A DNA stretch of 64,000 nt. It comes from an uncultured Pelagibacteraceae bacterium (GTDB taxonomy: Bacteria > Pseudomonadota > Alphaproteobacteria > Pelagibacterales > Pelagibacteraceae). How positions within the stretch are numbered: the stretch's first letter is position 1; the number at the start of each line of letters is the position of its first letter. A program made the translations under genes and the position numbers. Below, piece after piece: positions 12,287 to 51,631 of the stretch. The notes beneath the pieces were generated by a model. The model made no database searches, was not told the origin of the DNA, and saw nothing but the letters and a program-made list of their open reading frames with translations. The DNA is taken from NCBI GenBank assembly GCA_902599335.1, contig CACKFA010000007.1, positions 1 through 64,000 on the forward strand, read 5' to 3'.

Positions 12287-13066
12287 TTATAACTCTAATT
12301 CTTGAGCAAGATCGCCAATTTTTGCACCACCTGACATCAATCTTTTTACATCTTCACCACCAAGTTCTGAAGATAATCCTGAACCAATCACTTCTCCTAA
12401 ACTTAAAAAAGTATATCGATCAGCTATAAGGCGTGCATGAATTTCATTGTGTGTAATAAGTATAATTGCAATATTTCCAAGCCTTTGAACTTTTTTTATT
12501 GTTTTTAAAACTTCCATTTGCTGCTTTTGACCTAATGCTGATGTAGGTTCATCTAATATTAATATCTTTGCACCAAAGTAAATTGCTCTTGCAATAGCCA
12601 AAGTTTGTCTTTGTCCACCTGACATTGTTCCAACTGGTTGGTTAGGGTTTGAAATGTTAATTCCAATTTTAGACATTTCTTCTATTGTTATTCTGTCCAT
12701 CTCATCCATTTGCATTAAGCCAAATGGGCCAAGTCCTTTTTTTATTTCACGTCCAAGAAAAAAATTTCTTGTTACTGAAGTTAAAGCATTCAACGCTAAA
12801 TCTTGATAAACTGTACCAATACCCGCATCAGATGCTTGTCGCGGTGAGGAAAAATTAACAGTTTCCCCATCAACTTTTATTTCTCCACTTGTCATAAGAT
12901 GAACTCCGGATAACACTTTGATCAAGGTTGACTTTCCAGCTCCATTATCACCTAAAAGAGCGTGAACTTCCCCTGGATAGACATCTAATGAAACACCATT
13001 TAAGGCGGTAAATGATCCAAATTTTTTTACTACATTTTTTAGTTCTATTAATGGTTTTTTATCCAT
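12287..13066 (-). CDS. Sugar ABC transporter ATP-binding protein (FrcA-like)
   Basis: The 259-residue single-domain ATPase has Walker A GDNGAGKST (about 38-46), a Q-loop (YQDLALNALTSVTRNFFLGRE, typical of the ribose/xylose/fructose class), signature TMSGGQRQTLAIARA and Walker B ILDEPTSALG. It is half the size of RbsA and has one domain, like FrcA, so it probably works as a homodimer. It overlaps the permease gene by 1 base and belongs to the operon binding protein, permease, ATPase. Confidence 0.92.
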   Translation of the reverse strand: MDKKPLIELKNVVKKFGSFTALNGVSLDVYPGEVHALLGDNGAGKSTLIKVLSGVHLMTSGEIKVDGETVNFSSPRQASDAGIGTVYQDLALNALTSVTRNFFLGREIKKGLGPFGLMQMDEMDRITIEEMSKIGINISNPNQPVGTMSGGQRQTLAIARAIYFGAKILILDEPTSALGQKQQMEVLKTIKKVQRLGNIAIILITHNEIHARLIADRYTFLSLGEVIGSGLSSELGGEDVKRLMSGGAKIGDLAQELEL

Positions 13067-14661
13067 TAGATATTTCCCATAATTCGTTTCCTAATATTCT
13101 CATTTGTAAGAGCAGCAGTAACAAGAACAGCTCCAAGGAAGACTCTGTAGAATGATCCATCAATTCCTGGAATATAAAAAAAAGCTTCTTTTGCTATTCC
13201 AAAAATAATTGTACCTAAAATAATTCCACCTATTGTTCCAAAACCTCCTGTTAGCACGACACCACCAATTACTGCTGCAGCAATTGCTTCTAACTCTTTT
13301 AAATTACCTTTAGCTGTATCCGCAGTATTAACTTCAAATACTTGGCATGCAGCAAACATTGTTGCGCAGAATGCAGTATTCACAAATAATGAAATCTTAA
13401 CTTTGTTTGTTGGCACACCATTAGCCTTTGCAGCACTAAGATTTCCTCCAGTTGAATAAATCCAGTTACCTGCTTGAGTTTTGCTCAAAATTAAATAAAA
13501 AATTAAAGCTATAAGTGCCCAAATCATTAAACAGGAATACATTCCTTTAGCAAAAATGTTCCCGTAGTTATTTACGTTCCAGTCTGCAGTAAAATACAAC
13601 CAGTTAAAAATTGGTTCCATAATATCGCCTCCAAAAAAGTTAGCGACTGGTCTTGCAGTATAAATTGTGTCAATATAAGCTTTTGCTATATCAATATCAG
13701 TAACTGCTTTTGCAGCAACTTCAGGGACATTAACTCCAGCTTCTATTTTCTTTGTCAAAATTTCCACCATTGAGTCATTGCCAGATTTTTTTGCTCCAGC
13801 TAAAGATTTCTCTAAAGTTGCAATCATTTTTTCTGAATTTGAGGCAGTTTTGAAAGCAGCAACTTTTTCATTAATATATGTTAATCTTTCAGTTAATTTT
13901 GCTACTGTGCTTGCCGGTACAGTGCTAAGAATTTCTAATAGTTGGTCATTTGGTAAATTTTTAGCCGCATCCCTTTCCATTTCTCCATGACCTGGTACAT
14001 TTATAATATTTTTAATATCTGGTAAATCTGTAACAGTTGTTGATCCAGCAGTCTGGTCGGGAGCTCTATTAAATGCTCTATAGGATACTTCTGTTAAACC
14101 TCTTAAAAAGAAAAGTCCGCCTAGTGTAACAATGAAAGAAGCTATACCACTTTTAACTATTATCCATCCCTGAATCCATCCAAAAGATAAAGTCATGCAT
14201 AAAGTAATTAATATTGCAAGTAGTGGAGAAACATCTCTTATTTCAAATAACCTTAACCCCTCAAAATGAAAACCTCCTTCAAAAGATATGTAAGGAATAA
14301 CAACAGCAAAACCCCATTTAAGTATCATTGCCATACAACCACCAGCAAAACCGATCATAGAACCAACAGAAAGATCAAATTCACCTGCAATGATCAACAT
14401 TCCAGCAGCAAGTGCAACAATCCCTAATTGAGCAATTACCCTAAAATTATTTCTAATTCCTAAAGCATTAAATCCTTCACCAGAAAAAGGGTTCAAAGAA
14501 AATTGTCCTTCTGGAATAGAAAAGTATCCCAACATACAAAAAAGTAAAACCATCACTCCAAAAGGTCCGACCTCTGGTCGAGATGTTAATGCTGAGTACC
14601 ATTTTTTTTCACCTTGTCGGTCAGATTCTTGTCTAGGTTTTTTTGTTGTTGATGTGTTCAT
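13066..14661 (-). CDS. Sugar ABC transporter permease (FrcC/RbsC-like) with a large insertion
   Basis: The 531-residue protein belongs to the RbsC/FrcC permease family: GEFDLSVGSMIG (about 93-104), IVTLGGLFFLRGLTEVSYRAFNRAP, then GNLSAAKANGVPTNKVK and GGVVLTGGFGTIGG near the C-terminus. Typical members have 310-370 residues. The excess is an insertion at about residues 205-370, a hydrophilic helical domain (NLPNDQLLEILSTVPASTV... KLTERLTYINEKVAAFKT) placed between transmembrane segments, probably in the periplasm. The N-terminus (1-30) is cytosolic and basic. An intercistronic terminator-like hairpin lies just upstream. Confidence 0.88.
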   Translation of the reverse strand: MNTSTTKKPRQESDRQGEKKWYSALTSRPEVGPFGVMVLLFCMLGYFSIPEGQFSLNPFSGEGFNALGIRNNFRVIAQLGIVALAAGMLIIAGEFDLSVGSMIGFAGGCMAMILKWGFAVVIPYISFEGGFHFEGLRLFEIRDVSPLLAILITLCMTLSFGWIQGWIIVKSGIASFIVTLGGLFFLRGLTEVSYRAFNRAPDQTAGSTTVTDLPDIKNIINVPGHGEMERDAAKNLPNDQLLEILSTVPASTVAKLTERLTYINEKVAAFKTASNSEKMIATLEKSLAGAKKSGNDSMVEILTKKIEAGVNVPEVAAKAVTDIDIAKAYIDTIYTARPVANFFGGDIMEPIFNWLYFTADWNVNNYGNIFAKGMYSCLMIWALIALIFYLILSKTQAGNWIYSTGGNLSAAKANGVPTNKVKISLFVNTAFCATMFAACQVFEVNTADTAKGNLKELEAIAAAVIGGVVLTGGFGTIGGIILGTIIFGIAKEAFFYIPGIDGSFYRVFLGAVLVTAALTNENIRKRIMGNI

Positions 14662-14685
14662 TTATTTAAAGACTTATTAATTTAT

Positions 14686-14719
14686 AAAAAAAAAGGGCCG
14701 ACTGAATAATCGACCCTTT
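14686..14719 (-). terminator. Hairpin with U-tract between binding-protein and permease genes
   Basis: On the minus-strand RNA, AAAGGGUCGA pairs with UCGGCCCUUU (10 pairs including one G-U) around an 8-base loop and is followed by a U-run. It lies between the binding-protein stop (14733) and the permease start (14661). It should partly terminate transcription and protect the 3' end of the binding-protein message. Confidence 0.85.
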
Positions 14720-14732
14720 AAATTATTACTGA

Positions 14733-15638
14733 CTATCTGTCAATTCCTGCTAGAGCAGCAACTGAAGAAGCGTTAGACTTGTCAACGAAGCCAGGTCCCG
14801 ATGGGATGTTAGCTCCTGGAAGAAGTCCAGCACTGTTGTTGTACAAGTGTAATACGATAACTGGCATATAACCTTGTAGTCTTTGTTGTTGATCGATAGT
14901 GAAAGAAACTCTTCCAGATCCGATTAGGTCCATCACTGCAGGACTCAAGTCGAAGCAAGAGTGGTGTACTGTCATACCAAGATCAACTAAAGCTTTATCA
15001 ACAGCCTCACATACGTGTGGTCCTACTGAAAGGATTGCATTGATATCACTGTTAGCTTGTAAAGCAGCAGTAGCCCTAGTTTGAATAGTTGCCGGGTCAG
15101 ATGTAGTATCAGTCATTTGCATAGGAACTGCAGAACCGTAACCTTCACATCTGTCTACAAGAGCTGTGTTGTATGCTTCTTGAATCATACATAATGCTTT
15201 AGTAGCACCTTCGGCTTTTGCTCTTTCACCAGCTTTTTGTCCAGCAAGTAATTCAGGCTGACCAACGTGCATTAAAGCACCCAGGCTAGCAGAAGACTCT
15301 AAACCTGAGTTCATTGTAATAACTGGAACACCAGCAGCAACAGCAGCTTTAATAGCTGGGCCTAATGCATCTGGATCTGGTAAAGAAATTACCATACCGT
15401 CTGGTTGAGTAGCTGCAGCAGCTTGAATTGAGCTTGCCATATCAGCCATATCAGCAGAAGGGTTGTAGATGTATTCAAAGTCAGCACCGATTGCTCTAGC
15501 TGCATCTTCACCACCTTTTTGAACTACTGGCCAAAAAGGATCTTTACCTTCACCATGAGTAATCATGACGTATCTTTCAGCGAACGCAGAAGTTGCAAAT
15601 AATGCAAGAGCTGCAATCGAAAGTATAAGTTTTTTCAT
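14733..15638 (-). CDS. Sugar ABC transporter substrate-binding protein (FrcB/RbsB-like)
   Basis: The 301-residue periplasmic protein has a Sec signal (cleavage after ATSAFA, about residue 20) and the type I sugar-binding fold: YVMITHGEGKDPFWPVVQKGGEDAARAIG, QPDGMVISLPDPDALGPAIKAAVAAGVPVITMNSG, and ILSVGPHVCEAVDKAL. Ligand contacts in this family come from the DPFW aromatic, the MNSG turn and the FDLS region, all present. Residues are enriched in Ala and codons are more regular than in neighbours, consistent with very high expression. It is first in the operon, followed by a hairpin and the permease and ATPase genes. Fructose, ribose or another monosaccharide are all possible. Confidence 0.9.
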   Translation of the reverse strand: MKKLILSIAALALFATSAFAERYVMITHGEGKDPFWPVVQKGGEDAARAIGADFEYIYNPSADMADMASSIQAAAATQPDGMVISLPDPDALGPAIKAAVAAGVPVITMNSGLESSASLGALMHVGQPELLAGQKAGERAKAEGATKALCMIQEAYNTALVDRCEGYGSAVPMQMTDTTSDPATIQTRATAALQANSDINAILSVGPHVCEAVDKALVDLGMTVHHSCFDLSPAVMDLIGSGRVSFTIDQQQRLQGYMPVIVLHLYNNSAGLLPGANIPSGPGFVDKSNASSVAALAGIDR

Positions 15639-15650
15639 TATTTCCCTCTT
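15639..15650 (-). promoter_or_regulatory. Strong ribosome binding site of the sugar-binding protein
   Basis: The minus strand reads AAGAGGGAAATA immediately before the ATG. Exactly the same 12 bases precede the TctC gene (20533-20544). AGAGGG is a good Shine-Dalgarno in a genome where many genes have none, fitting high translation of binding proteins. Confidence 0.7.
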
Positions 15651-15664
15651 ATTAGTTAGTTAAT

Positions 15665-15711
15665 TTAATATATATATATTAATTATTAAGTAAGGATTTA
15701 AACACATTCAA
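15665..15711 (-). promoter_or_regulatory. Promoter and palindrome of the sugar ABC operon
   Basis: On the minus strand, TTGAAT (15711-15706) and TAATAA (15688-15683) are 17 bases apart and form a sigma70-like promoter. Just downstream, an 18-base perfect palindrome (15665-15682; TTAATATAT and its complement) could be an operator, although it is low-complexity AT sequence. The remaining spacer up to 15897 (259 bases in all) is A/T-rich, with no gene or RNA that I can see. Confidence 0.45.
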
Positions 15712-15897
15712 ACATAAGTAGTAAAGTAAAAAATAAAATTATTAAAGATTTATATATAATATCTATATCTAATTTTATTTTGTTAAAATTAAAATAAATT
15801 CAACTATTGGTTGATATTTATTTTTTATGATTTTTTTTTTATTTTTTAATACTTTTAGAAAAATTTAATTTTTTTTATTAAATTATAAATAGAATTT

Positions 15898-16800
15898 CTA
15901 ATACGTTGCACTTCTTCCTAATCTTGCGGCACCTCTAACGCCACTAGCGTCTCCGTATCTAGGTTTTAAAAAAACACCCTCATATTCTCTTCCAATAACA
16001 AATTTTCTAACCAATGAGTCTATTTCATGTAAAAAATCAATTTCGTTTGAAACTCCTCCTCCAAATATAAAAGCATCAGGATCTAAAATGTTTATGATGC
16101 ATGAAAGTGACATTGCTAAATTTACTTTAAAATCATCTATAAATCTTTCTGCATCTAAATCGTGTTTTCTGTTCAATTCAAAAATTTCATTTGTTTTTAA
16201 ATTTTTTCCATAAAGTTTCTTAAATCTTTTTGCTAAACTTAAACCAGATAAAAAGCTTTCAATCTCTGCTTCCCTAGCATTACTAGAGTCGAAATTTTCT
16301 TTTTTAGCTGCAAAATATGGAATTTGGTTGTGTCCCCATTCCCCTGCTACTCCATTCGAGCCAGTAATAATTTTTTTGTCTATTACTAAACCACCTCCAA
16401 CTCCTGAACCTAATATAATTCCATAAACAATTTTGTAATGTTTACCTGATCCATCTATAGCTTCTGATAAAGAAAAACAGTTTGCATCATTTTCACAAAA
16501 TACTTCTTTTCCAAGTGCTTTACGTAGATCACTTTGAAATGGTTTTTTTTCTAACCAAGATATATTTGGAGCATTTTTTACTAATCCAGTTTGAGGAGAA
16601 TGAACTCCTGGATGACAAACTCCAATCGGAAGTTCTTGTTTAAACTCTTGTTCTAATTGTCTATGAATATCTTTTATAGCAGTTATAATTTGGGTATACT
16701 CCTTTGGACACGATATTCTTGATCTATGTTTTTCGTTCCCATTTTCTTCAAGTACAACACTCTCTATTTTAGTTGCACCAACATCGATACCTACTTGCAT
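15898..16800 (-). CDS. ROK family sugar kinase (Mak-like), lacking the zinc cysteines
   Basis: The 300-residue protein carries the ROK hallmarks: GIDVGATKIESVV phosphate motif (about 4-16), the catalytic Asp in FCENDANCF (D105), GSGVGGGLVI and AGEWGHNQIPY (153-161). The last matches the GEWGHNPLPW segment of E. coli fructokinase Mak. The C-x-C-G-x-x-G-C zinc motif that normally follows is absent: residues 162-180 contain no cysteine. Fructose, mannose or another hexose is the likely substrate. Two bases separate it from the SDR gene. Placed after the sugar importer, it would phosphorylate the imported sugar. Confidence 0.82.
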   Translation of the reverse strand: MQVGIDVGATKIESVVLEENGNEKHRSRISCPKEYTQIITAIKDIHRQLEQEFKQELPIGVCHPGVHSPQTGLVKNAPNISWLEKKPFQSDLRKALGKEVFCENDANCFSLSEAIDGSGKHYKIVYGIILGSGVGGGLVIDKKIITGSNGVAGEWGHNQIPYFAAKKENFDSSNAREAEIESFLSGLSLAKRFKKLYGKNLKTNEIFELNRKHDLDAERFIDDFKVNLAMSLSCIINILDPDAFIFGGGVSNEIDFLHEIDSLVRKFVIGREYEGVFLKPRYGDASGVRGAARLGRSATY

Positions 16801-16802
16801 AA

Positions 16803-17552
16803 CTAATATGTTGCTCTTCCACCACTTAAATCAAAAACTGCTGCAGTTGAAAATGAATTCTCCTCACTAGCTAACCAAGTTACTAATGAGGCTAATTCCT
16901 CAACTTTTGCAAATTTGTTTCTAGGAATTTTTGATAACATATAATTTATATGTTCTTCTGTCATTTGATCAAATATCCTGGTTTTAGCTGCTGCTGGTGT
17001 AACACAATTTACAGCTATATTTTTTTGCGCTAGCTCTTTACCTAGAGATTTTGTTAAACCTATAACACCCGCCTTAGATGTGCTGTAAGCGCTAGCATTT
17101 GGGTTTCCTTCTTTACCTGCAATAGATGCAATATTAACAATTCTTCCATAATCATTCTTAGCCATAAATGGAACTACTGCTTTGCAACAGTAAAAAACTG
17201 CAGTTAAGTTTAAGTTAATTACCTTATTCCACTCTTCTATTGGATATTCTGCAACTGTAGTGTTCATTCCAGCTACACCCGCATTGTTAATAAAGATATC
17301 AATCTTACCATGTGATTTTTCAACTTCAGATAATTTCGAATTTATTGTATCATAATTGCTCACATCAACTATTTGATAAGTTAAGTTTTCTGATTTTACT
17401 TTTTCTAAAGCTTTTTTAGCTTCACCTTCGTCTATATCCCAAATTACTACTTTAGCTCCAGATTCAATAAATCTTTCAGTGATAGCTAAACCAAATCCTT
17501 GAGCTCCACCTGTTACAATTGCTACTCTGTTTTTTAAATCATATTTAATCAT
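16803..17552 (-). CDS. SDR family oxidoreductase
   Basis: The 249-residue classical SDR has TGGAQGFG (about 14-21), NNAG, the NIASIAGKEG serine, YSTSKAG (Tyr and Lys of the catalytic set) and the C-terminal LSGGRATY. It resembles the FabG/glucose-ribitol dehydrogenase group. It lies between tctA (2 bases) and the ROK kinase (2 bases), hence one transcript with the TctCBA transporter. The substrate is not determined; a sugar acid or polyol is plausible from context. Confidence 0.82.
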   Translation of the reverse strand: MIKYDLKNRVAIVTGGAQGFGLAITERFIESGAKVVIWDIDEGEAKKALEKVKSENLTYQIVDVSNYDTINSKLSEVEKSHGKIDIFINNAGVAGMNTTVAEYPIEEWNKVINLNLTAVFYCCKAVVPFMAKNDYGRIVNIASIAGKEGNPNASAYSTSKAGVIGLTKSLGKELAQKNIAVNCVTPAAAKTRIFDQMTEEHINYMLSKIPRNKFAKVEELASLVTWLASEENSFSTAAVFDLSGGRATY

Positions 17553-17554
17553 CT

Positions 17555-19027
17555 TTATTTTTTAAATTTTTTTGATCTTATTAAAGGAAAAGCTAAGGCA
17601 ATTAAAGACAAAATAAAGAACGTTAAAGCTATTGGTCTTGTGAAAAACATTAACCAATTTCCATCAAATATAACCAGAGATTGTCTTAAAGTACCCTCAA
17701 CTAATTCACCTAAAATCAATCCGATGATAACTGGTACAACTGAAAAACCATATCTTCTCATAAAGAAACCTAGAATACCAAAAAATAACATTATCCAAAC
17801 ATCTATTATAGATTGGTTTAATGAATAGGTTCCGCAAACTGAAACTGCAAAAATCATTGGCCATAAAATTTTATTTGGCACTAATGTTATTCTTGCAAAA
17901 ATTTTCGCTCCAAAGAACCCAAATATAAAAAACAAAACATTGGCAATTAACATTGCTCCAAAGATTCCATATAAAAAATCGGGTTGTTCTCTAAATAAAT
18001 CAGGACCAGGTCTTACACCATGTATAATTAATCCAGTAAGGATAACAGCTGTTGTTGCACTACCAGGAATTCCAAGTGCAAGTGTTGGAACCATCGCGCC
18101 TCCAGTTGCTGCATTATTTGCTGCTTCTGCACCAGCAATACCCTCTATAGAACCTTTTCCAAACTGTTCAGGTTTTTTCGAAAATCTTTTTGCTTCTGAA
18201 TATCCAATTAAAGAAGCAACTGTTCCGCCTTCAGCAGGTAACACTCCAATAAACGAACCAATGCCACTGGATCTTAAAATTGTTTTCCAGGTATTTTTAT
18301 AATCATCTTTACTTGGAAGTTTTATTGCTTTTAAAGTTATTCTATTAAATATTTGGTTAATTAAAGTTGATTGAGTTAACATCTCGCTCATTGCAAATAA
18401 ACCAACTACCACAGGTATAAAACCAATCCCTTCAGTTAATTCATTAATTCCAAAAGTAAATCGATCAATTGAAGTCATAAAATCTTTGCCAACTGTTGAA
18501 ATTAAAATTCCAAATGCACCTGCAATTAAATTCTTAATTGGGCTTCCCTCTCCTATTGATGCAAGCATCGTTAAACCAAAAATTGCTAACGCAAAATATT
18601 CTGGTTGACCAAATTCATAAGCTAGTTGAGCCAGAATAGGTGCAAAAAATACAAGAATAATAACGCTAAAAATACCCCCAACTGTACTAGAAACAGTTGC
18701 CATTCCTAAAGCCCTACCAGCCTCTCCTTTTTGTGCTAAAGGATACCCGTCTAAACAAGTTGCTGCAGCAGCTGGGGTTCCAGGTGTATTAATCAGAACT
18801 GCAGTGATTGCACCTCCATAAGTACCTGCACAATAAATTGAGGTCAACAATACAATTGCTGATAAAGGATCGAGCGTCATTGTAAAAGGTAAAATTAATG
18901 CACCACCAGTTGTTGGTCCTAAACCGGGTAGAACACCTAATATTAAACCAAACAAAGTTCCAAAAAATAAAACCAACATTAGCTTTGAGCTAAATAAAGG
19001 AGCCATCATTAATAATAAATTTTCCAT
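17555..19027 (-). CDS. tctA: Tripartite tricarboxylate transporter, large membrane subunit TctA
   Basis: The 490-residue protein has about 12 membrane helices and the TctA signatures: FGTLFGLILGVLPGLGPTTGGALILPFT near the N-terminus, and the repeated GVLPAEGGTVASLIGYSEAKRFSK and GSATTAVILTGLIIHGVRPGP segments. It forms the transport pore of TTT uptake systems, driven by an ion gradient and fed by the periplasmic TctC. It starts one base after the tctB stop. TTT systems carry citrate and other carboxylates; the substrate here is open, although sugar-acid-type molecules fit the neighbours. Confidence 0.92.
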   Translation of the reverse strand: MENLLLMMAPLFSSKLMLVLFFGTLFGLILGVLPGLGPTTGGALILPFTMTLDPLSAIVLLTSIYCAGTYGGAITAVLINTPGTPAAAATCLDGYPLAQKGEAGRALGMATVSSTVGGIFSVIILVFFAPILAQLAYEFGQPEYFALAIFGLTMLASIGEGSPIKNLIAGAFGILISTVGKDFMTSIDRFTFGINELTEGIGFIPVVVGLFAMSEMLTQSTLINQIFNRITLKAIKLPSKDDYKNTWKTILRSSGIGSFIGVLPAEGGTVASLIGYSEAKRFSKKPEQFGKGSIEGIAGAEAANNAATGGAMVPTLALGIPGSATTAVILTGLIIHGVRPGPDLFREQPDFLYGIFGAMLIANVLFFIFGFFGAKIFARITLVPNKILWPMIFAVSVCGTYSLNQSIIDVWIMLFFGILGFFMRRYGFSVVPVIIGLILGELVEGTLRQSLVIFDGNWLMFFTRPIALTFFILSLIALAFPLIRSKKFKK

Positions 19028-19534
19028 CTAGCTATAATAAATATTGGTTATAATTCCAGGTGGAAACCTTAGACCTAGAATTGTCTCAAAAAAAATAAAT
19101 ACTAAGACTGGAAAAATAATACCAACAAGTAATAAATAAAATATTCTTTTTTCTCCCCAATAATATGAAACAAAAATAGATAAAGCTGAAATTGCTAAAA
19201 AAAAATCTAAACTTTTTGAAATCACTACAAAAATAAAAAAACTTAAAATTGTTAAATAAAATGATTTAGGTAATTTTTTTTCAACTTTCCAAGGATTTTT
19301 GATTGCTAAATAGTAAATTAGTAAACTCATTACTATTATTAAAATCAAAAGTGCCTTTGGAAATGTTGCTGGTTGAATTCCTCTATTTAAAATAGGAGGA
19401 ACAATATCAAATGTAAAAGTAGTGATTAATAATGCTACAGAAGTTAAAATAATAACCAAACAAACTTTAAACTCGTCTCTAAAAAAAAAGGGCAAACTTT
19501 TGTTTGCCCTTTTTTGTTTTTGTACATTCTTCAT
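19028..19534 (-). CDS. tctB: Tripartite tricarboxylate transporter, small membrane subunit TctB
   Basis: The 168-residue protein has four hydrophobic helices and the PPILNRGIQPATFPKALLILI motif typical of TctB near its first loop. It stabilises the TctA pore. The annotated ATG at 19534 makes codons ~6-17 (QKQKRANKSLPFFF) coincide with a strong terminator-like hairpin, and it has no Shine-Dalgarno. No other in-frame ATG occurs before the first helix, but a TTG (about codon 26) downstream of the hairpin is a conceivable alternative start. Confidence 0.85.
   Translation of the reverse strand: MKNVQKQKRANKSLPFFFRDEFKVCLVIILTSVALLITTFTFDIVPPILNRGIQPATFPKALLILIIVMSLLIYYLAIKNPWKVEKKLPKSFYLTILSFFIFVVISKSLDFFLAISALSIFVSYYWGEKRIFYLLLVGIIFPVLVFIFFETILGLRFPPGIITNIYYS
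19482..19516 (-). terminator. Strong intrinsic terminator inside the 5' end of tctB
   Basis: GGGCAAAC (19490-19497) and GTTTGCCC (19502-19509) form a perfect 8-pair stem with a TTTT loop. It is extended by A-T pairs and followed on the minus strand by nine U residues. It works as a terminator in both orientations. It lies downstream of tctC and inside the annotated tctB reading frame, so readthrough must supply tctB and tctA. Confidence 0.9.
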
Positions 19535-19557
19535 ATTTAAATGTACTTTTAATTAGA

Positions 19558-20532
19558 TTAGTTAATGTAACCTAATGCTTTAAGCTGAGCAGTCATTTCT
19601 GTAAGCATTTCCTCCATTTGCTTACCCCACTCGTCAGCACCAACTACACTAGTGTCATCAAGACCAATTTCAGTTAAGAAATTTTTGTAATAGTTGTGAC
19701 TCATAGCTTTCATCATTCCAGCTTCTAATTGTTTTACTCTGTCTGCTGGAGCACCTTTTTTTGTTACGAAACCTCTAACAGTAGATAAAGACACAGGTAT
19801 ACCTAACTCTTTTGCTGTTGGAGAGTCTCCAATTTTAGCCATTCTATTGTTTGCTAATACGACTGAAACACAAAGTTTACCTTCATTAATTTCAGTTAAT
19901 GCTTCACCTAAGTTTAAAACACCTACATCAATATCTCCTTTGATAAGGTTAGTTTTAATTGGTGCAACACCTTTGTAAGCAACGATAGTTGGATCTTTTA
20001 ATCCACCTTTTTTTGTAAATGCGATTGCACTAACATCATCAATACCACCAGTATGTGTTGTTCCATATTTTAGTGATTTTGATTTTTGTGTGCTTATAAA
20101 TTTCTTAGCATCTTTGATATCGTTTTTACAATTAACAACAAATAATTGAGGATCATCAGTTCCTCTTGCAAGTGGTTGCATATCGCTCAACTTAACTTTA
20201 GTTTTACCTAAAGCCATAGATACAGCATGACCTGTAGTCCAAGTTAAAGTATGATTTCCATCAGCTGGTAAAGACATCATGTAGTCCATAGATGCTGCTC
20301 CACCACCACCTTTTTTGTTTACTAATTGCATATCCTGCTTAAGAACTCTTCTAGCTCTTAATAACATCATTCTAGTAGTAACGTCTGTTCCACCACCAAA
20401 ACCAGCATGAGTAATTGCTTGTATTGGATGTCCATCAGCTTTAGCTGAAGTGATCATTAATGGAAGAGCTACAACAAAAAATTCAGTTACTAAAAAAGCG
20501 GCTGCTAAAAATAGTTTAAAACTTTTTTTCAT
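19558..20532 (-). CDS. tctC: TTT-family periplasmic substrate-binding protein TctC (Bug)
   Basis: The 324-residue protein has a long signal peptide (cleavage after about residue 32, ITSAKADG) and the Bug-family fold: QAITHAGFGGGTDVTTRMMLLRAR, KKGGGGAASMDYMMSLPADGNHTLTW, LKYGTTHTGGIDDVSAIAFTKK and a C-terminal MLTEMTAQLKALGYIN. Bug receptors bind carboxylated ligands through the G-G-x-D loop. It is the first gene of tctC-tctB-tctA-SDR-ROK. Its start is preceded by the same 12-base leader as the sugar-binding protein. Confidence 0.9.
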   Translation of the reverse strand: MKKSFKLFLAAAFLVTEFFVVALPLMITSAKADGHPIQAITHAGFGGGTDVTTRMMLLRARRVLKQDMQLVNKKGGGGAASMDYMMSLPADGNHTLTWTTGHAVSMALGKTKVKLSDMQPLARGTDDPQLFVVNCKNDIKDAKKFISTQKSKSLKYGTTHTGGIDDVSAIAFTKKGGLKDPTIVAYKGVAPIKTNLIKGDIDVGVLNLGEALTEINEGKLCVSVVLANNRMAKIGDSPTAKELGIPVSLSTVRGFVTKKGAPADRVKQLEAGMMKAMSHNYYKNFLTEIGLDDTSVVGADEWGKQMEEMLTEMTAQLKALGYIN

Positions 20533-20570
20533 TATTTCCCTCTTAAGTTAATTTATATTTAATAAATTAA
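20533..20570 (-). promoter_or_regulatory. tctC ribosome binding site and 9-5-9 inverted repeat
   Basis: AAGAGGGAAATA directly precedes the tctC ATG. Upstream of it, TTAATTTAT (20548-20556) and ATAAATTAA (20562-20570) are a perfect inverted repeat with a 5-base spacer. This could be an operator or a 5' hairpin. The chance risk is real in AT-rich DNA. The divergent PdxA-like gene starts at 20602. Confidence 0.4.
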
Positions 20571-20601
20571 ACATAATCTGATACAAGACGTAAAGAAAAA
20601 A

Positions 20602-21606
20602 ATGACTCAAAACAAATCTAACATTGCTTTATTGCTAGGAGATCCTGCGGGGATAGGTCCAGAGTTAATTTCAAAACTTTTGAATGATAATATTACTAAA
20701 AAAGCAAACATAGTCATCATTGGTGAAAAACAAGTATTTGAAAACGGAAATAATATTACTGGTATTTTTCATAAATTAGATGTTGTTGAAAATTTTGATG
20801 AAATAGATTTTAATAAATCTAATCGATTTTTATTAGATATTTCAAAAGGAAAAAATCATAAATATAAATTAGCTGTACCTTCCAAAGAATCTGGTGAAAG
20901 TGTATTAGAAGCTTTATATTTAGCTTTAACACTCGCTAAAGAAAAAAAAATAGATGCAATTAATTTTGCACCAATGAATAAAACAAGTTTAAAACTTGGA
21001 GGAAACAAGCATTCAGATGAGTTGCAATTAATGGCTGAAAAGCTTGGAGTAGAAAGCTTTTGTTGTGAATTTAATGTCATAGATGATTTTTGGACGGCAA
21101 GAGTAACTTCCCATATTCCAATAAAAGAAGTTGCTCAACATATTACAAAAGAAAATATCATGAAGCCGATAAAACTTATAAATGAAGTTATGGAGTTGAA
21201 TGGTGTAAAAAATCCTCGAATTGCTGTTCAGGCACTTAATCCTCATGCTGAGTTTGGTACAGAGGAAAAAGATGAAATTATACCTGCAATTGAGGAAGCA
21301 AAAAAACTTGGTTACAATGTTGATGGTCCTTTACCATGTGACACATCTTTTGTGGTTGCATATAAAAATAAAAATCATGATTGTATGGTTGGCATGTATC
21401 ATGATGCACTTCAATCTGGGCTAAAAGCATTTGGCTTCGACAGAGGCGTAACAGTTCAAGGAGGATTAACTGTACCAGTAACTACTACAGCTCATGGTTC
21501 TGCATTTGCTATTGCAGGAAAAAATGAGGCTAATTTAGCACCAATTTTAAATTCTTTTAAAATTGCTTTGTCTATGGCTGAGAATAAAAATAAATCTATT
21601 AATTAA
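20602..21606 (+). CDS. PdxA family dehydrogenase, probably catabolic (PdxA2-type)
   Basis: The 334-residue protein has the PdxA fold: LLGDPAGIGPELISKLL (about 10-26), APMNKTSLKLGG, SHIPIKEVAQHITKENI, and the metal-site GMYHDALQSGLKAFGFDRGVTVQGGL. True PdxA oxidises 4-phosphohydroxythreonine in vitamin B6 synthesis. PdxA2 relatives act on 4-phospho-erythronate/threonate in sugar-acid breakdown. Here it is flanked by tctC and Gfo/Idh/IolD genes, with no other B6 gene, so a catabolic role is favoured. It is divergent from tctC, with a 69-base shared promoter region. Confidence 0.82.
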   Translation: MTQNKSNIALLLGDPAGIGPELISKLLNDNITKKANIVIIGEKQVFENGNNITGIFHKLDVVENFDEIDFNKSNRFLLDISKGKNHKYKLAVPSKESGESVLEALYLALTLAKEKKIDAINFAPMNKTSLKLGGNKHSDELQLMAEKLGVESFCCEFNVIDDFWTARVTSHIPIKEVAQHITKENIMKPIKLINEVMELNGVKNPRIAVQALNPHAEFGTEEKDEIIPAIEEAKKLGYNVDGPLPCDTSFVVAYKNKNHDCMVGMYHDALQSGLKAFGFDRGVTVQGGLTVPVTTTAHGSAFAIAGKNEANLAPILNSFKIALSMAENKNKSIN

Positions 21607-21620
21607 AATTTAACTATTTT

Positions 21621-22778
21621 TTAATTTAATATTTTTTTAATTTCTTCAAGTGTAAAAGGTTTTGGTTTTTTACATGTGGTTTTTATTTCTTGAGGAACTC
21701 CAGTTTGTGAAGCTCTCATTGTGGAGTCTATTATATCTAATACATGCAGTGATAACTCTCCGTTACATCGATGCTCTAAATTATTTTCAATTGCATACGC
21801 CATTTCTGATAATCCAGCCCCTCGGTAATTTGCATTAGTTGGTGATTCGTTTGCTCTGGAGCTTTGACTCTTTATATTAATCTTTCCTAAAGGCATCATA
21901 TCTGTTTTATGTTCTCCCCAATTACCTCCAGCTGTAACTGAGACAAAAGCAGAGCCACCAAACATGTTTGGATCTGGAACAATAATTGATCCTTTGTTTC
22001 CATAAAGCTCAATATGGTTTCTTTGATGTGCGACCACATCAAATGATAAAGTTATTTGAATTATGCAATCATTTTCAAACTGTATAGTTGCTAAATAAGT
22101 TGTTGGAGTATCAACTTTAAATTTTTGACCTTTTTTGTGACCAATTCCAATTTCTCTTTCTTCAAAAACTTTTGTACATCTTCCTTGAACCTGTTTTGCT
22201 GGACCAATTAAATTTACCAATGCTGTTAAGTAGTATGGTCCCATATCTATAACTGGTCCACCTTCATTTTTAGCAAACCATGGTTCTGGATTTGGATGAT
22301 AAGATTGAATTCCTGGATAAGCAAAAATAGCATTACCTAACTTGATATCTCCAATAACCCCGTTATCAATTAATTCTCGGGTTTTTTGAATTCCTCCTCC
22401 TAAAAATGTATCTGGCGCATTCCCAAGATATAAATTTTTATTTGAAGCAATCTCTATTAATTTTTTTCCATCATCAAAATCAACTGACAAAGGTTTTTCA
22501 GCATAAGAATGTTTGCCATTTTCTAAAGCCATTTTAGAAACTTCAAAATGTGCTGCAGGTATTGTTAAATTGAGTATTATTTCAATTTCCTTATCATTCA
22601 AAATTTCCTCAACGGTAACAGCTTCAATATTGTAATGTATTGCACATTTTTTTGCCGCATCCAGATTTATATCAGCACATTTAACTATCCTAATATTATT
22701 AAAATACTCTTGTGCTCTAAAATAAGTTTCTGAAATATGCCCACAGCCAATAAGACCGACTTTAAAAATTTTATTCAT
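21621..22778 (-). CDS. Gfo/Idh/MocA family oxidoreductase (inositol-dehydrogenase-like)
   Basis: The 385-residue enzyme has a Rossmann start (KVGLIGCGHISETYFRAQ), the SYAEKPLSVDF lysine motif (about 96), GGPVIDMGPYYLTALVNLIGPAKQVQG with the catalytic region, and a C-terminal LEEIKKIL. At 385 residues it is longer than typical Idh enzymes, like many sugar/cyclitol members with an extended C-terminal sheet. It lies 6 bases downstream of iolD on the same strand, so it is probably part of cyclitol breakdown or of a C2/C3 oxidation feeding it. Confidence 0.85.
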   Translation of the reverse strand: MNKIFKVGLIGCGHISETYFRAQEYFNNIRIVKCADINLDAAKKCAIHYNIEAVTVEEILNDKEIEIILNLTIPAAHFEVSKMALENGKHSYAEKPLSVDFDDGKKLIEIASNKNLYLGNAPDTFLGGGIQKTRELIDNGVIGDIKLGNAIFAYPGIQSYHPNPEPWFAKNEGGPVIDMGPYYLTALVNLIGPAKQVQGRCTKVFEEREIGIGHKKGQKFKVDTPTTYLATIQFENDCIIQITLSFDVVAHQRNHIELYGNKGSIIVPDPNMFGGSAFVSVTAGGNWGEHKTDMMPLGKINIKSQSSRANESPTNANYRGAGLSEMAYAIENNLEHRCNGELSLHVLDIIDSTMRASQTGVPQEIKTTCKKPKPFTLEEIKKILN

Positions 22779-22784
22779 AAAGGT

Positions 22785-24629
22785 TTATACACCTTGTCTT
22801 TGTTTACCTTTTCCTTCTTTATAAAGTTTTAAAGCCTCTTCATTTTCTTTAGTGGTTGAAATTTCTAAAGTTGGACTATCCCAAAAAGATGAGCCTTCAA
22901 CCCATTTGTAAGCATGAGTTTTTATTGAAATAACATAAGTCACATCAGATGCTTTTGCTCTTTTAAATGCAGCTTCAAGATCTGAAATTGAAGTAACGTG
23001 TTCAGATTTTGCACCCATACTTTCCGCATGTTTTGCAAAATCTACATCAACTAAGCCAGGTGTGTTAGAACTCTTTAATAAGTTGTTGTACTCTTTACCA
23101 CCTTTAAATAATTGTAATCGATTAATAACTGCAAAGCCTCCGTTGTCACAAACAATTATAATCAATTTTTTTTTTGTGATAACTGAAGAATAAATGTCGG
23201 TATTATTTAATAGATAAGATCCATCTCCTACAAAAGAAATTACTTCTTTGTCTGGATTTGCCATTTTGATTCCCAAAGCTCCAGAAATTTCATAACCCAT
23301 ACAACTAAAACCCCATTCTGTTTCATGAGTATTTAGTTCTCTTGGTCTCCAAACTTGAATTACCTCACCAACTAAACCTCCTGCAGCTGTAACTGCAATA
23401 TCTGTTGGATTAGAATTTCTATAGATTGCACCAATTGCCTGAACATAACTTGGGACTTCTTGATTAGTTGGAGCACTCTCTTTATCTATATGCTCATTCC
23501 ACGACTTAAGCTCAATTTGAGATTTTTTATTCCAATCTTCTCCTACTTTCCAGTCACCTAAAGCTTGAGAAAGTTCAGTTAATGAAACTTTTGCATCTCC
23601 AACAACTGCCTGTGCTAAATGTTTATTAGCATCATATCTTGATACATTGATAGAAACTAATTTGAAATTTTCGTTTTCAAAATTTGCCCATGATCCTGTT
23701 GTAAAATCAGCAAGTTTTGTTCCAACCGCAATAGCAAGATCAGTTTCTTTAGCTAATGTATTTGTATTTTTTCCTCCTAGACCTCCAATTTGACCTGCAA
23801 AATGAGAATGGTCTCTCTTCATTGTTGAATAGCCCATTACAGTTTGTGTAACTGGAATGTTGTGTTTAATTGCAAACTGACTTAATTCTTCCATTGCATC
23901 TGAATAAAATACTCCACCTCCAGATATTATTATTGGATTTTTTGAAGATTTAATTTTAACAGCTGCTTCTTTTATTTGAAATTCATCTGGTCTTGGTCTT
24001 CGAATCGTGTGAACTTTTTCTTGAAAAAATTCTACTGGATAATCAAAAGTTTGACCTTGGATATCTTGACTCAACGAAATACAAGCTGGGCCACAATCAG
24101 CTGGATCTAACATTGTTTGAACTGCTATTGGAAATGATTGAATTATTTGTTCGGGTCTTGTGATACGATCAAAATATCTCGTAACTGGTTTAAAAGCATC
24201 GTTTGCAGTTGTGCTTGGGTTGTTAAATTGTTCAACTTGTTGCAATACTGGATCTGGCATTCTATTTGCATAAGTATCACCAGGTAAAAATAAAATTGGT
24301 AATCTATTGCTCATAGCAACCGCAGCAGCTGTAATCATATTTGTTGCTCCAGGTCCAACAGATGATGTCGCTACAAAAATTTGTTGTCTTCTTTTTGCTC
24401 TTGCATAGCCAATTCCTGTAAGAGCCATATTTTGCTCATGATGACCTCTATATGTTGGAAGATCTTTTTGATTTTCCTCTAATGCTTGACCTAAGCAAGC
24501 TACGTTTCCATGTCCAAAAATTCCAAAGACACCTGGAAATAAAGGTTCTTTTTTGCCGTTAATTAATATTTTCTGAGCAATTAAATATTTAACTATTGCA
24601 TGAGCACATGTAAGGGTAATTTTTTTCAT
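22785..24629 (-). CDS. iolD: 3D-trihydroxycyclohexane-1,2-dione hydrolase IolD (TPP-dependent)
   Basis: The 614-residue protein has the three-domain acetolactate-synthase fold and matches IolD closely. It has LTCAHAIVKYLIAQKI at the N-terminus, GIFGHGNVACLGQAL, the cofactor-activating Glu in YRGHHEQNMAL (about 63), PDPVLQQVEQ, ALKPVTRYFDRITRPEQ-like text (here AFKPVTRYFDRITRPEQ), and the C-terminal TPP/Mg site GDGSYLLNNTDIYSSVI...NGGFAVINRLQ. IolD opens the ring of the dione from inositol to give 5-deoxyglucuronate. Six bases separate it from the Gfo/Idh gene. TPP dependence ties it to the thiV locus. Confidence 0.92.
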   Translation of the reverse strand: MKKITLTCAHAIVKYLIAQKILINGKKEPLFPGVFGIFGHGNVACLGQALEENQKDLPTYRGHHEQNMALTGIGYARAKRRQQIFVATSSVGPGATNMITAAAVAMSNRLPILFLPGDTYANRMPDPVLQQVEQFNNPSTTANDAFKPVTRYFDRITRPEQIIQSFPIAVQTMLDPADCGPACISLSQDIQGQTFDYPVEFFQEKVHTIRRPRPDEFQIKEAAVKIKSSKNPIIISGGGVFYSDAMEELSQFAIKHNIPVTQTVMGYSTMKRDHSHFAGQIGGLGGKNTNTLAKETDLAIAVGTKLADFTTGSWANFENENFKLVSINVSRYDANKHLAQAVVGDAKVSLTELSQALGDWKVGEDWNKKSQIELKSWNEHIDKESAPTNQEVPSYVQAIGAIYRNSNPTDIAVTAAGGLVGEVIQVWRPRELNTHETEWGFSCMGYEISGALGIKMANPDKEVISFVGDGSYLLNNTDIYSSVITKKKLIIIVCDNGGFAVINRLQLFKGGKEYNNLLKSSNTPGLVDVDFAKHAESMGAKSEHVTSISDLEAAFKRAKASDVTYVISIKTHAYKWVEGSSFWDSPTLEISTTKENEEALKLYKEGKGKQRQGV

Positions 24630-24721
24630 AAATATGTTTATCTTTTAATATGTATAGTGTTTATATATAATTTTAATTATAAATTAAAAAACCTAATTAA
24701 GTAAACTTAAAAATAAATTCT

Positions 24722-26164
24722 ATGTACGAAAAATTTGGACAATTCATTGATGGTAAATGGCAGCAAGCTGAAAAAAAAGAAACTTATGATGTAATCAACC
24801 CTGCAACTGAGGAAGTGATTGGAAAAGCATCGAAAGCTTCATCTATTGAAGTACAAAAAGCATTAAAGTCTGCAGAAAAAGGTTTGGAAGTTTGGAAAAA
24901 CACCGCTCCATGGCAAAGAGCTTACGTGCTTAGAAAAATTGCAGACATGATGAGAGAGAAAAAAGATGTTATTGCAAAATGGTTAACTCTTGAAGTTGGA
25001 AAACCTTTAACAGAAGCAGTTGGTGAGGTTGGTGGTGGAGCTGATATTTTTGAGTGGAATGCTGAGGAAACAAAAAGGATTTATGGTCAAACACAACAAA
25101 GTAGATTTCCAGATACTAGAGTTCATGTTTATTATCAACCTGTAGGAGTTGTTGCAGCTTTAGTTCCTTGGAATTTCCCAATAGTTTTAGCCTCAAGAAA
25201 AATTTCTACTGCTTTAGCTGCAGGATGTTCTGTAATTTGCAAACCTGATGTAATTACTCCTGGTGCTGTAATGGAATTAGTAAACATTTGCAAAGAAGCT
25301 GGTGTACCAGATGGTGTGGTTAGTCTTTTGTCAGGTGACCCTGCTGAAATATCAAATGAATTAATGGAATCTGATATTATTAAAAAGGTATCAGTCACTG
25401 GATCAACTAGAGTTGGTAAAATTATTTTAAAAAAAGCAGCTGATAAGGTTCAAAGAGTTACTATGGAGCTAAGCGGACACTCCCCTTTTATTGTATGTGA
25501 AGATGTGGATATGAACAAAGTAGCTGATATAGCAATAACTGGTAAATTTAGAAATAACGGTCAAGTCTGTATTTCACCGAATAGATTTTATATCCAAGAA
25601 AATAGAAAAGATGAGTTTGTTGATGCTTTTATCGAAAGAGCAAAAAAATTAAAAATTGGAAACGGTATGGATAAAGGTGTGGATCTAGGACCTTTAACAA
25701 CAGCTAAAAGATTAGAAGAAATAGAAAAACTCGTTGAAACTACAAAAAAAGAAGGAGCTAAAGTATTGATGGGTGGACAGAAACCTTCTGGTTTCAATAA
25801 AGGATATTATTATGAACCAACAGTTTTTGACGATGTAAAAGATAATTTTACAATAATGAAAGAAGAACCTTTTGGTCCACTAGTTCCAATTTTAACTTTT
25901 AAAACTTTTGATGAGGTAATTAAAAGAGCAAATGATAATGACTTAGGATTATGTAGTTATTTGTACACTAATTCTATGGACAAAGCTCATATTGGATCTG
26001 AAAAGCTAGAGTCTGGTTGTGTTGCAGTTAATACTGGTGTTGTTGCAATTGCTGAAGCACCTTTTGGAGGTATTAAACAAACTGGTTATGGTCGTGAAGG
26101 TGGTTCAGGAGCAATTAAAGACTATCTAAATGTGAAATACACTCACATGGGCTTAAAAATATAA
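24722..26164 (+). CDS. NAD(P)-dependent aldehyde dehydrogenase
   Basis: The 480-residue enzyme has the ALDH core: VVAALVPWNFPIVLASRKIS (NAD site), the general-base Glu in VTMELSGHSPFIV (where SGHSP replaces the common GGKSP), the nucleophile Cys in NNGQVCISPNRFY and EEPFGPLVPIL near the end. It resembles the succinate-semialdehyde/alpha-ketoglutaric-semialdehyde dehydrogenase group. Divergent from iolD (92-base spacer) and 3 bases upstream of an HpcH aldolase gene, it likely oxidises the aldehyde released by that aldolase. Confidence 0.87.
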   Translation: MYEKFGQFIDGKWQQAEKKETYDVINPATEEVIGKASKASSIEVQKALKSAEKGLEVWKNTAPWQRAYVLRKIADMMREKKDVIAKWLTLEVGKPLTEAVGEVGGGADIFEWNAEETKRIYGQTQQSRFPDTRVHVYYQPVGVVAALVPWNFPIVLASRKISTALAAGCSVICKPDVITPGAVMELVNICKEAGVPDGVVSLLSGDPAEISNELMESDIIKKVSVTGSTRVGKIILKKAADKVQRVTMELSGHSPFIVCEDVDMNKVADIAITGKFRNNGQVCISPNRFYIQENRKDEFVDAFIERAKKLKIGNGMDKGVDLGPLTTAKRLEEIEKLVETTKKEGAKVLMGGQKPSGFNKGYYYEPTVFDDVKDNFTIMKEEPFGPLVPILTFKTFDEVIKRANDNDLGLCSYLYTNSMDKAHIGSEKLESGCVAVNTGVVAIAEAPFGGIKQTGYGREGGSGAIKDYLNVKYTHMGLKI

Positions 26165-49478: not shown

Positions 49479-49832
49479 TTATTTATTTTCTTGATCGTTA
49501 TCTACTACTAAGCAAATTTCAGATTTTGTTAAAAATCTTTTTCCTGTACCGTTGTCCAATGAAAACATTCCTCCAATACCACTCACAGCATCTATAGTTA
49601 AATCTGTATGTTTCCATTTTTCATATTGATCACCATTCATATAAAAAGGTACTCCTCCAATTTCACCAAGTTTTACATCATTATCTCCAAGTGGAAATTC
49701 ACCCTCTGGAAAACACATTGGTGCACTTCCATCACAACAACCTCCCGACTGATGGAACATTAATTTTTCCCCATATCTTGCTTGAAGTTCAGATAAAAGA
49801 TTTAAGGCTGATTTTGTTGCAGATACTTTCAT
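49479..49832 (-). CDS. DUF779 family protein
   Basis: The protein matches DUF779: ATKSALNLLSELQARYGEKLMFHQSGGCCDGSAPMCFPEGEF and VPFYMNGDQYEKWKHTDLTIDAVSGIGGMFSL. I start at ATG 49832 (MKVSATKSAL; 117 residues), since the first ATG at 49850 lies inside a hairpin arm. The Cys pair (GGCCDG) may bind metal. DUF779 genes are commonly neighbours of aldehyde dehydrogenases, as here. The function is unknown but likely accessory to the aldehyde dehydrogenase. Confidence 0.85.
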   Translation of the reverse strand: MKVSATKSALNLLSELQARYGEKLMFHQSGGCCDGSAPMCFPEGEFPLGDNDVKLGEIGGVPFYMNGDQYEKWKHTDLTIDAVSGIGGMFSLDNGTGKRFLTKSEICLVVDNDQENK

Positions 49833-49843
49833 TTTTAATGTCC

Positions 49844-49868
49844 GGCCCATGAATTAGAATCATGGGCC
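49844..49868 (-). promoter_or_regulatory. Perfect inverted repeat between aldehyde dehydrogenase and DUF779 genes
   Basis: GGCCCATGA (49844-49852) and TCATGGGCC (49860-49868) form a 9-pair perfect stem with a 7-base loop, lying between the aldehyde dehydrogenase stop (49892) and the DUF779 start. There is no following U-tract, so it is an mRNA-processing, attenuation or protein-binding element. Confidence 0.75.
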
Positions 49869-49891: not shown

Positions 49892-51631
49892 TTAAAAGAA
49901 GCCTAATTTTTTCTCAGCATAAGAGACATGTAGATTCTTATTCTGACGATAATGATTAAGCATCATTTTATGAGTTTCTCTTCCAACTCCAGATTGTTTA
50001 TATCCCCCAAATGGTGAGTGAGCTGGATAAGCGTGATAACAATTTGTCCATACTATTCCTGCTTGTATTGCTCTACCCATTCTGTAGGCAATATTACCAT
50101 TTCTTGTCCATACACCTGCTCCTAAACCGTAAAGAGTATCATTGGCTATTTCTAGAGCCTCAGCCTCATCTTTAAATTTAATCACAGAAACAACTGGACC
50201 AAAAATTTCTTCTTGAGAAATTCTCATATTGTTGTTTGCTTCAAAAATAGTTGGCTCAATATAATTTCCTTTTTCAAGACCACTATTTAATTTAGCTGTA
50301 TTTCCACCTGCAAGGACTTTAGCACCTTCTTTTTTTCCAAGATCTAGATAAGATTTAATTTTCTCCATCTGTTCTATGGAAGCTTGTGCGCCAATCATTG
50401 TTTCCATTTTCAAAGGATTGTCTTGCACAACTGCCTTTGTTCTAGCAATACATTTTTCCATGAATTTATCGTAGATAGATTCTTGAACTAATGCTCTACT
50501 AGGACAAGTACAAACTTCACCTTGGTTTAGATTAAACATTACAAAACCTTCAACACATTTATCTAAAAAGTCATCATCTTTATCCATGATATCTTCAAAG
50601 AAAATGTTTGGAGATTTTCCACCTAATTCCAAAGTTATAGGAATTATATTTTGAGCAGCATACTGCATGATTAATCTTCCAGTAGTTGTTTCACCAGTAA
50701 AGGCAACTTTAGCAACTCTTTTTGATGAAGCTAATGGTTTACCTGCTTCTAATCCAAAACCACTTACAATATTAACAACTCCAGGAGGTAATAAATCACC
50801 AATTAATTCCATCATTACCATAATAGATGCTGGTGTTTGCTCTGCTGGTTTAAGAACTGAACAGTTACCTGCTGCAAGTGCTGGAGCTAATTTCCAAGTT
50901 GCCATCAGTAACGGAAAGTTCCAAGGTACTATTTGACCAACTACACCAAGTGGCTCAGGAATATTATAAGAGTATTGAGAATTGCTTATCTCAGCAACCG
51001 ATCCCTCTTCTGCTCTAATTACACCTGCAAAATATCTCCAATGATCTATTACAAGTGCTAAATCTGCAGCCATACATTCTCTTATTGGCTTTCCATTATC
51101 TAAACATTCAGCCACAGCCAACATATCTTTGTTTTCCTCAAGCTTGTCAGCTATTTTATTTAAAATATTTGATCTTGTAGTTATATCAGTTTTTCCCCAC
51201 TCTTTAAAAGCTGCGTGAGCTGCATCTAATGCTGCTTCAACATCTTTTTCATTTGATCGTGCTACAGAACAGATTATCTCGTTTGAAATTGGACTTGGAT
51301 TATCAAAGTATTTACCTGATAATGGCTCAACAAACTTTCCATTAATGTAATTTCCATATTTAGCCTTAAATGGAAATTTCACATTTAAGTGAGATGTATC
51401 TAGTACTGAAGACACTTTCATAGCTTCTGCACTCATATTTTTAACCTTTCTCTTGTTAGTTTTATTTTTAAGTTTATTATTTTTTCTAGATTTTTTAGAA
51501 CGCTTCTTAGTCGCAGACTTTTTAGCCACTACTCTTTTTTTCGTTTTAGTTTTTTTTCTAGAAGATTTGACCAATTTAGATTTTTTTTTCTTGGTCTTGG
51601 GTTTTGCTATTTTCTTTTTCTTAATAGCCAT
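49892..51631 (-). CDS. Aldehyde dehydrogenase with lysine-rich N-terminal extension
   Basis: The 579-residue enzyme has a complete ALDH core: [24 protein letters not shown] (NAD site), the general-base Glu in [14 protein letters not shown], the nucleophile Cys in [15 protein letters not shown], and [13 protein letters not shown]. It resembles AldB/ExaC-type acetaldehyde dehydrogenases. The first 65 residues are a histone-H1-like tail (30 Lys, 5 Arg, no acidic residue). The usual ALDH start is M66 ([13 protein letters not shown] 51436), which has its own AGAAAGG Shine-Dalgarno; the first ATG has none. Two forms may be made. DUF779 follows. Confidence 0.87.

Follow-up and report, generated by a model that had tools for sequence, protein, structure and literature searches.

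The window analysed here, a stretch of 64,000 nucleotides from a SAR11 (Pelagibacteraceae) genome, carries on its minus strand the operon tctC-tctB-tctA, in which the tctB open reading frame (19534..19028) encodes 168 amino acids. The genes and the elements at the junction between tctC and tctB are as follows:

17555..19027, minus strand: tctA, large membrane subunit (Pfam PF01970, E 2.2e-159)
19028..19534, minus strand: tctB, small membrane subunit, with its ATG start at 19534 (Pfam PF07331, E 1.4e-11, residues 25-158; frame conservation)
19481..19489, minus strand: nine-T run (U in RNA) 3' of the core stem, codons 16-18, Phe-Phe-Phe (sequence)
19484..19515, minus strand: hairpin 2, terminator-like, 14 pairs and a four-base loop, tctB codons 7-17 (fold energy, conservation, compensatory pairs)
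19522..19546, minus strand: hairpin 1 (probable), GTACATTT / GAATGTAC stem with the tctB ATG in its loop (RNAalifold prediction, conservation, one compensatory pair)
19558..20532, minus strand: tctC, binding protein of the tripartite tricarboxylate transporter (Pfam PF03401, E 1e-18); the element comes after its stop codon

Positions 19515..19481, read on the minus strand, have the order A6-GGGCAAAC-AAAA-GTTTGCCC-T9. The stem of hairpin 2, A6-GGGCAAAC / GTTTGCCC-U6 (19515..19484), consists of an 8-pair core with five G-C pairs and six further A-U pairs, 14 in all. It starts 19 nt past the A of the tctB ATG and occupies nt 20-51 of the tctB open reading frame (codons 7-17), while the last U of the run falls in codon 18. 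An earlier note on this DNA had described a terminator-like hairpin with nine Us after tctC and within the annotated start of tctB, and the coordinates, the fold and the open reading frame agree with this description. The "8-pair GC stem" of that note corresponds to the core, although three of the core pairs are A-U and the full stem is longer. The predicted energy of hairpin 2 is -18.7 kcal/mol, and none of 200 shuffled sequences matched it (two framings gave z values of -5.4 and -5.6). When the 64-kb window was scanned for unbulged hairpins with at least 8 pairs, at least 3 G-C pairs and -14 kcal/mol or better, two hairpins were returned, of which hairpin 2 is the stronger. A GC-bearing stem passing directly into a U run is the shape of an intrinsic (Rho-independent) terminator; hairpin 2 has this shape, and RNA polymerase may terminate at its U run.

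Hairpin 2 is nearly symmetric and could be taken for the terminator of a plus-strand gene; the nearest such gene, pdxA-like, starts at 20602 and heads away, and this candidate was rejected. No Rfam family was found at the gathering threshold in the 64-kb window, hairpin 2 included. An antiterminator in the 3' end of tctC, as a riboswitch-type attenuator would have, was sought by folding 200 nt of tctC together with the junction, and hairpin 2 still folded in all 17 orthologs tried. In 14 of these the duplex energy of the upstream RNA with the hairpin region lay under 2.0 s.d. above base-shuffled controls, and the excess in L115, L123 and L143 was 2.0-2.7 s.d.; an antiterminator may exist, but good evidence for one was not found in these 17 orthologs. 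The window's other strong hairpin (49844-49868, -15.3 kcal/mol) overlaps the 5'-most ATG of the following open reading frame (49479..49850). It comes after an ExaC-like aldehyde dehydrogenase gene (49892..51631), the best match of which is slightly under its cut-off and which encodes ~85 additional N-terminal residues.

Relatives of tctB were gathered from 397 genomes of the family (83 with a match of any kind), from named contigs (the best 80 of 303 tctA relatives) and from further stretches. The named records closest in tctA belong to Pelagibacteraceae / Candidatus Pelagibacter, which places the window in SAR11. The tctB1 loci adjoining tctC number 145, with 105 distinct junctions among them; L057, L083 and L089, for which no tctC was found, were left out of the junction and frame counts. 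Hairpin 2 is present in all 105 distinct junctions, with energies of -15.2 to -22.4 kcal/mol and a start 12-22 nt past the A of the ATG, and 95 of them retain 8 or 9 Us in the run. RNAalifold, run on 37 divergent sequences with no structure supplied (39 representatives less the distant L146 and L148), predicted two hairpins. When this structure was extended by one A-U pair, to 21 pairs, and supplied, 97.9% of the cells in these 37 sequences paired. Compensatory change was observed at six pairs, five in hairpin 2 (of 14 pairs) and one in hairpin 1, compared with 0.6 in shuffles; none of 500 shuffles reached six. A control that counts further pair types is weaker, with 41 of 500 shuffles reaching the observed value. 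Stem variants in which pairing is kept include GGGACAAAC/GTTTGTCCC (L126), GGGGCAGAC/GTTTGCCCC (L136), GGGCGAAC/GTTCGCCC (L124) and GGGACGAA/TTCGTCCC (L144).

The codons that make up hairpin 2 show little synonymous variation. Between sequences, the synonymous difference averages 0.014 for codons 7-18 and 0.354 for codons 19-55, ~25-fold lower in the hairpin (n=110, those of the 121 distinct sequences without indels and with the membrane motif). In these 110 sequences Pro-15 is encoded by CCC (99/99), Leu-14 by TTG (109/109) and Arg-9 by AGG (98/98), unlike the Pro and Leu codons later in tctB1, which are variable. The earlier note had considered it unusual for a terminator to encode conserved residues. 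The relation is better reversed, because the use of almost a single codon per residue indicates that the residues look conserved as a consequence of the conservation of the RNA.

Hairpin 1 is formed by GTACATT and AATGTAC on either side of the tctB ATG (19546..19522). A stem of at least 6 pairs enclosing the ATG was found in 101 of 105 distinct sequences; the exceptions are L144, L146 and L147, with weaker stems, and L002, which was scored at its second ATG. Variation in this stem includes a compensatory pair in L137 and a different stem, CGTGC/GCACG, in L144. The stability of hairpin 1 is ordinary, as 4 of the 64 ATG starts in the window reach -5 kcal/mol, that of tctB included, and taken alone it is unremarkable, so that the case for this hairpin depends on conservation. 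We regard hairpin 1 as probably real and weaker than hairpin 2.

Of 109 distinct sequences, 108 have the homologous ATG in frame with the membrane segment. L136, L137, L140, L141, L146 and L147 are outside the 109, the membrane motif being absent, and an open ATG frame was found for them. An alignment of related tctB N-termini, which the earlier note had proposed as a check, thus finds the ATG frame kept, together with the residues RANKSLPFFF, which are well kept within the genus. The sole frame exception, L002 (its DNA is contained in L031), has one extra A between ATG1 and hairpin 2, and a second ATG, 7 nt downstream and still upstream of the hairpin, is in frame. The extra A could stem from misassembly, from a homopolymer error or from a genuine shift of the start. 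Insertions in the hairpin loop, seen in L123, L124, L136 and L137, are three bases each, while the spacer between the tctC stop and the ATG has 11 different lengths, from 11 to 28, in the 108 in-frame sequences. In most sequences the next possible start codon is TTG at codon 14, in the 3' arm of the hairpin, closer than the TTG around codon 26 named by the earlier note. In L124, L125 and L144, neither ATG nor GTG nor TTG occurs between ATG1 and the membrane segment, and a later start therefore cannot be the rule. The Pfam match starts at residue 25, so the hairpin codons precede the conserved domain. These comparisons indicate that the annotated start (ATG 19534) is probably right, and they support the view that hairpin 2 is both coding sequence and a selected RNA element. 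Of the two possibilities raised in the earlier note, a true start further in is not supported, given the frame, the three-base loop indels and the three loci devoid of a later start. The other, a hairpin both coding and attenuating, is borne out for coding and for selected structure by frame, compensatory change and synonymous constraint; attenuation itself is an inference. In L145 (G218:C10) tctB seems broken, with stops within both matches, but both start hairpins are intact.

A similar arrangement occurs in the second tctCBA operon of the window's genome (G000:C17, L313/L331), which has the terminator-like hairpin GAGCAGTGA / TCACTGCTC-U6 at the start of its tctB, here tctB2 (L313:1452-1525). 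The 5' arm holds the GTG start codon, the 3' arm and the U run encode SLLFF of the first hydrophobic stretch, and the hairpin region reaches -21.7 kcal/mol (z -5.4). Of 297 genomes searched, 158 had a tctB2 match, and 66 of these were examined. The GTG start was present in all 66 loci (66 genomes), and the ten-pair stem was complete in 64, with nine pairs in the other two. Of the two leucines encoded by the hairpin, one is CTG in 63 and the other CTC in 59 of 64 distinct sequences; at positions 14-55, CTG accounts for 0 and CTC for 3 of 210 leucine codons. Only one pair changed on both sides, a value reached by 149 of 500 shuffles. Since this covariation control is weak, the codon choice is the stronger evidence, and the fixed GTG adds to the case. 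The tctB2 stem should hide the GTG start codon. By eye and unscored, GGAGG just 5' of the GTG complements U/C-rich bases after the 3' arm in some tctB2 members (e.g. L368).

A third TctB lineage (L153-L166, 22-27% identical to tctB1) has a hairpin of 11-15 pairs in the first codons at 14 of 14 loci. Its sequence differs between subgroups and the long U run is absent, so that termination cannot be the entire function there. In the TctB group L149-L152 and L168-L170, a G5/C5 hairpin lies just upstream of the ATG. Among 12 TctC junctions from eight SAR11 genomes, the hairpin was inside or overlapping the next open reading frame in nine and upstream of it in two, and one junction had no hairpin. 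Six of the nine, the window's among them, were found by script, and three tctB2 junctions were assigned by inspection because their loop exceeds the limit of the script. At 48 GC-rich tctB loci from other families of the class, a crude script that guessed the strand gave mixed results, with some hairpins before the start, a few in the first codons (L298, L318 and L321) and a clear U run at none.

To place these junctions among other transporters, four further binding-protein families were surveyed in eight SAR11 genomes (98 of 102 matches, four being without a locus). A strong hairpin (-14 kcal/mol or better) starting at most 60 nt from the stop codon was found in 74 of the 98 loci (L171-L268) and was absent from the remaining 24. 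The next gene was defined as an ATG-started open reading frame of at least 60 aa, a definition that would miss a GTG inside a hairpin, as in tctB2. In all 59 hairpin loci with such a frame at most 140 nt away the hairpin started upstream of it, and in none of them inside it; the other 15 of the 74 had no such frame within that distance. Thus, SAR11 binding-protein genes commonly have a hairpin behind them, and its location inside the next gene is, within this survey, a peculiarity of tctB. In 54 of the 74 hairpins, T makes up six or more of the eight bases that follow the last G/C of the stem, and in 15 it makes up four or fewer. Such a hairpin is absent after two other binding-protein genes of the 64-kb window. 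Strong hairpins thus follow 74 of 98 binding-protein genes, yet the window shows only two.

We favour, with moderate confidence, the explanation that hairpin 2 is the 3'-end hairpin of tctC, a leaky terminator and barrier to 3'-5' decay that has been absorbed into tctB, leaving more tctC RNA than tctBA RNA. The hairpin would close the tctC message as a leaky intrinsic terminator and would block 3'-5' decay of the tctC RNA. As a result, tctC RNA would outnumber tctBA RNA and, we propose, binding protein would exceed permease. Because the tctB frame starts upstream of the hairpin, the hairpin would also be translated, as an N-terminal extension, with selection preserving pairing and frame together at the tctB start. 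Ribosomes that initiate at the ATG, 19 nt upstream, could unfold the stem and thereby favour read-through. This explanation draws on the retention of the hairpin in every distinct junction, the covariation, the synonymous constraint, the conserved frame, the 74 of 98 binding-protein loci and the two further TctB lineages. Against it count the third lineage without a long U run, the 24 of 98 loci and two window genes without a hairpin, and the weaker pair-type control; moreover, so strong a terminator shape sits awkwardly with expression of tctBA. More tentatively, the element may be a translated dual-function module, in which the hairpin that ends the binding-protein message sits in the first codons of tctB. 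Initiation of tctB translation, at the ATG in the hairpin 1 loop or, in tctB2, at the GTG within the stem, would determine if RNA polymerase continues and permease is produced. A single hairpin would then set the ratio of binding protein to permease at the levels of transcription, decay and translation, and the arrangement would have arisen in at least three TctB lineages. We consider this extended version possible but rather doubtful.

Three other explanations were weighed. The hairpin could be a pure RNA-decay element resembling that of malEFG, blocking 3'-5' exonucleases after cleavage in tctBA, with termination absent. The lack of a long U run in the third TctB lineage, the 15 of 74 binding-protein hairpins with at most four T among the next eight bases and the E. 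coli precedent, which works by decay (PMC5927463, in the text available), all suit this idea; we nevertheless think it unlikely, as a decay barrier alone does not need the run of 8-9 U kept in 95 of 105 tctB1 junctions. We find it improbable that the annotated start is wrong, with tctB beginning at codon 14 (TTG) or beyond it and the hairpin being an ordinary untranslated spacer. The in-frame ATG in 108 of 109 sequences, the three-base loop insertions beside a stop-to-ATG spacer of 11 lengths, and the three loci without a later start before the membrane segment argue against this. They outweigh a Pfam match beginning only at residue 25 and a TctB group (L149-L152, L168-L170) that begins downstream of its hairpin. 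The frameshifting A of L002 (L031) also points to a later start, but L002 has another in-frame ATG upstream of the hairpin.

A coincidence, in which the N-terminal residues are selected and the hairpin is a by-product, seems very improbable to us. RANKSLPFFF is indeed well kept in the genus, but each residue is tied to a single codon (CCC for Pro-15, TTG for Leu-14, AGG for Arg-9) while later Pro and Leu codons vary, and residues change where paired bases change together. The leucine codons of tctB2, nearly all CTG or CTC in the hairpin and almost never so at positions 14-55, speak against it as well.

Intercistronic hairpins behind binding-protein genes are already known. As described in the available portions of one study of E. 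coli, the part of malEFG and of four other ABC operons that was stabilised was in every case the binding-protein gene; among 34 gene pairs whose upstream gene was stabilised, 26 had the 3' end of that segment directly behind a stable hairpin (PMC5927463). This precedent counts in favour of the leaky-terminator and decay-barrier explanation. The malE-malF type and tctCBA share a stable hairpin right after the binding-protein cistron and upstream of the membrane subunits, and in both the binding protein is the subunit required in excess. However, the malE-malF structure is intergenic, whereas the tctCBA hairpin is terminator-shaped and lies in the tctB frame and so is not untranslated RNA; that study also excluded gene pairs parted by an intrinsic terminator (PMC5927463). 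A terminator that sequesters a ribosome-binding site, one hairpin both terminating and hiding the start, has been put forward as a possibility, with no experimental case by 2010 in the text available (PMC2965389). The tctB2 hairpin, with the GTG in its stem, has that shape, but it lies between cistrons and is known from sequence, whereas the proposal concerned a 5' leader (PMC2965389). Transcript ends inside open reading frames have been mapped in E. coli by 3'-end sequencing and, in the portions available, mostly attributed to RNase processing (PMC7815308). The tctB hairpin is likewise a candidate transcript end inside an open reading frame, but a conserved, U-tailed one at the very start of the second gene. 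Structured RNAs from the same bacterial group, in Ca. Pelagibacter ubique, include a rhtB-adjacent motif followed by 6-9 U in about half of the examples; as far as the available text goes, that search was aimed at long intergenic regions, so that elements in coding sequence fell outside it (PMC2704228). Under iron limitation, the Ca. P. ubique sfuC (binding protein) transcript was reported to rise 16-fold, compared with 10.4 for sfuB and 5.0 for sfuA (PMC2864753). This gradient would fit RNA levels that differ between the genes of a transporter operon and is silent on the tctC-tctB junction.

Among the open-licence papers listed by the literature searches, none appeared to concern a translated terminator at a binding-protein/permease junction or such hairpins in SAR11. 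What appears to be new is a terminator-like hairpin translated as the start of a permease gene, kept by pairing and frame and paralleled in two more lineages. It would be an RNA element concealed in annotated coding sequence, beyond the reach of searches confined to intergenic regions, and it cautions that a terminator-like hairpin within a gene start does not by itself mean a wrong start. Binding proteins rank among the most abundant SAR11 proteins. An explanation of how one SAR11 operon yields a large excess of binding protein over permease was not found in the available portions of the literature searched, and the hairpin pattern suggests a concrete, testable answer to how these streamlined cells favour the binding protein. 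The gene neighbourhood of the operon (13066-26164) suggests a cluster for sugar or inositol catabolism, with iolD above its cut-off and, below theirs, an iolG-like dehydrogenase, a ROK kinase, a PdxA-like protein and a rhizopine-type binding protein with its permease. This neighbourhood offers a hint as to the substrate range of the window's tctCBA.
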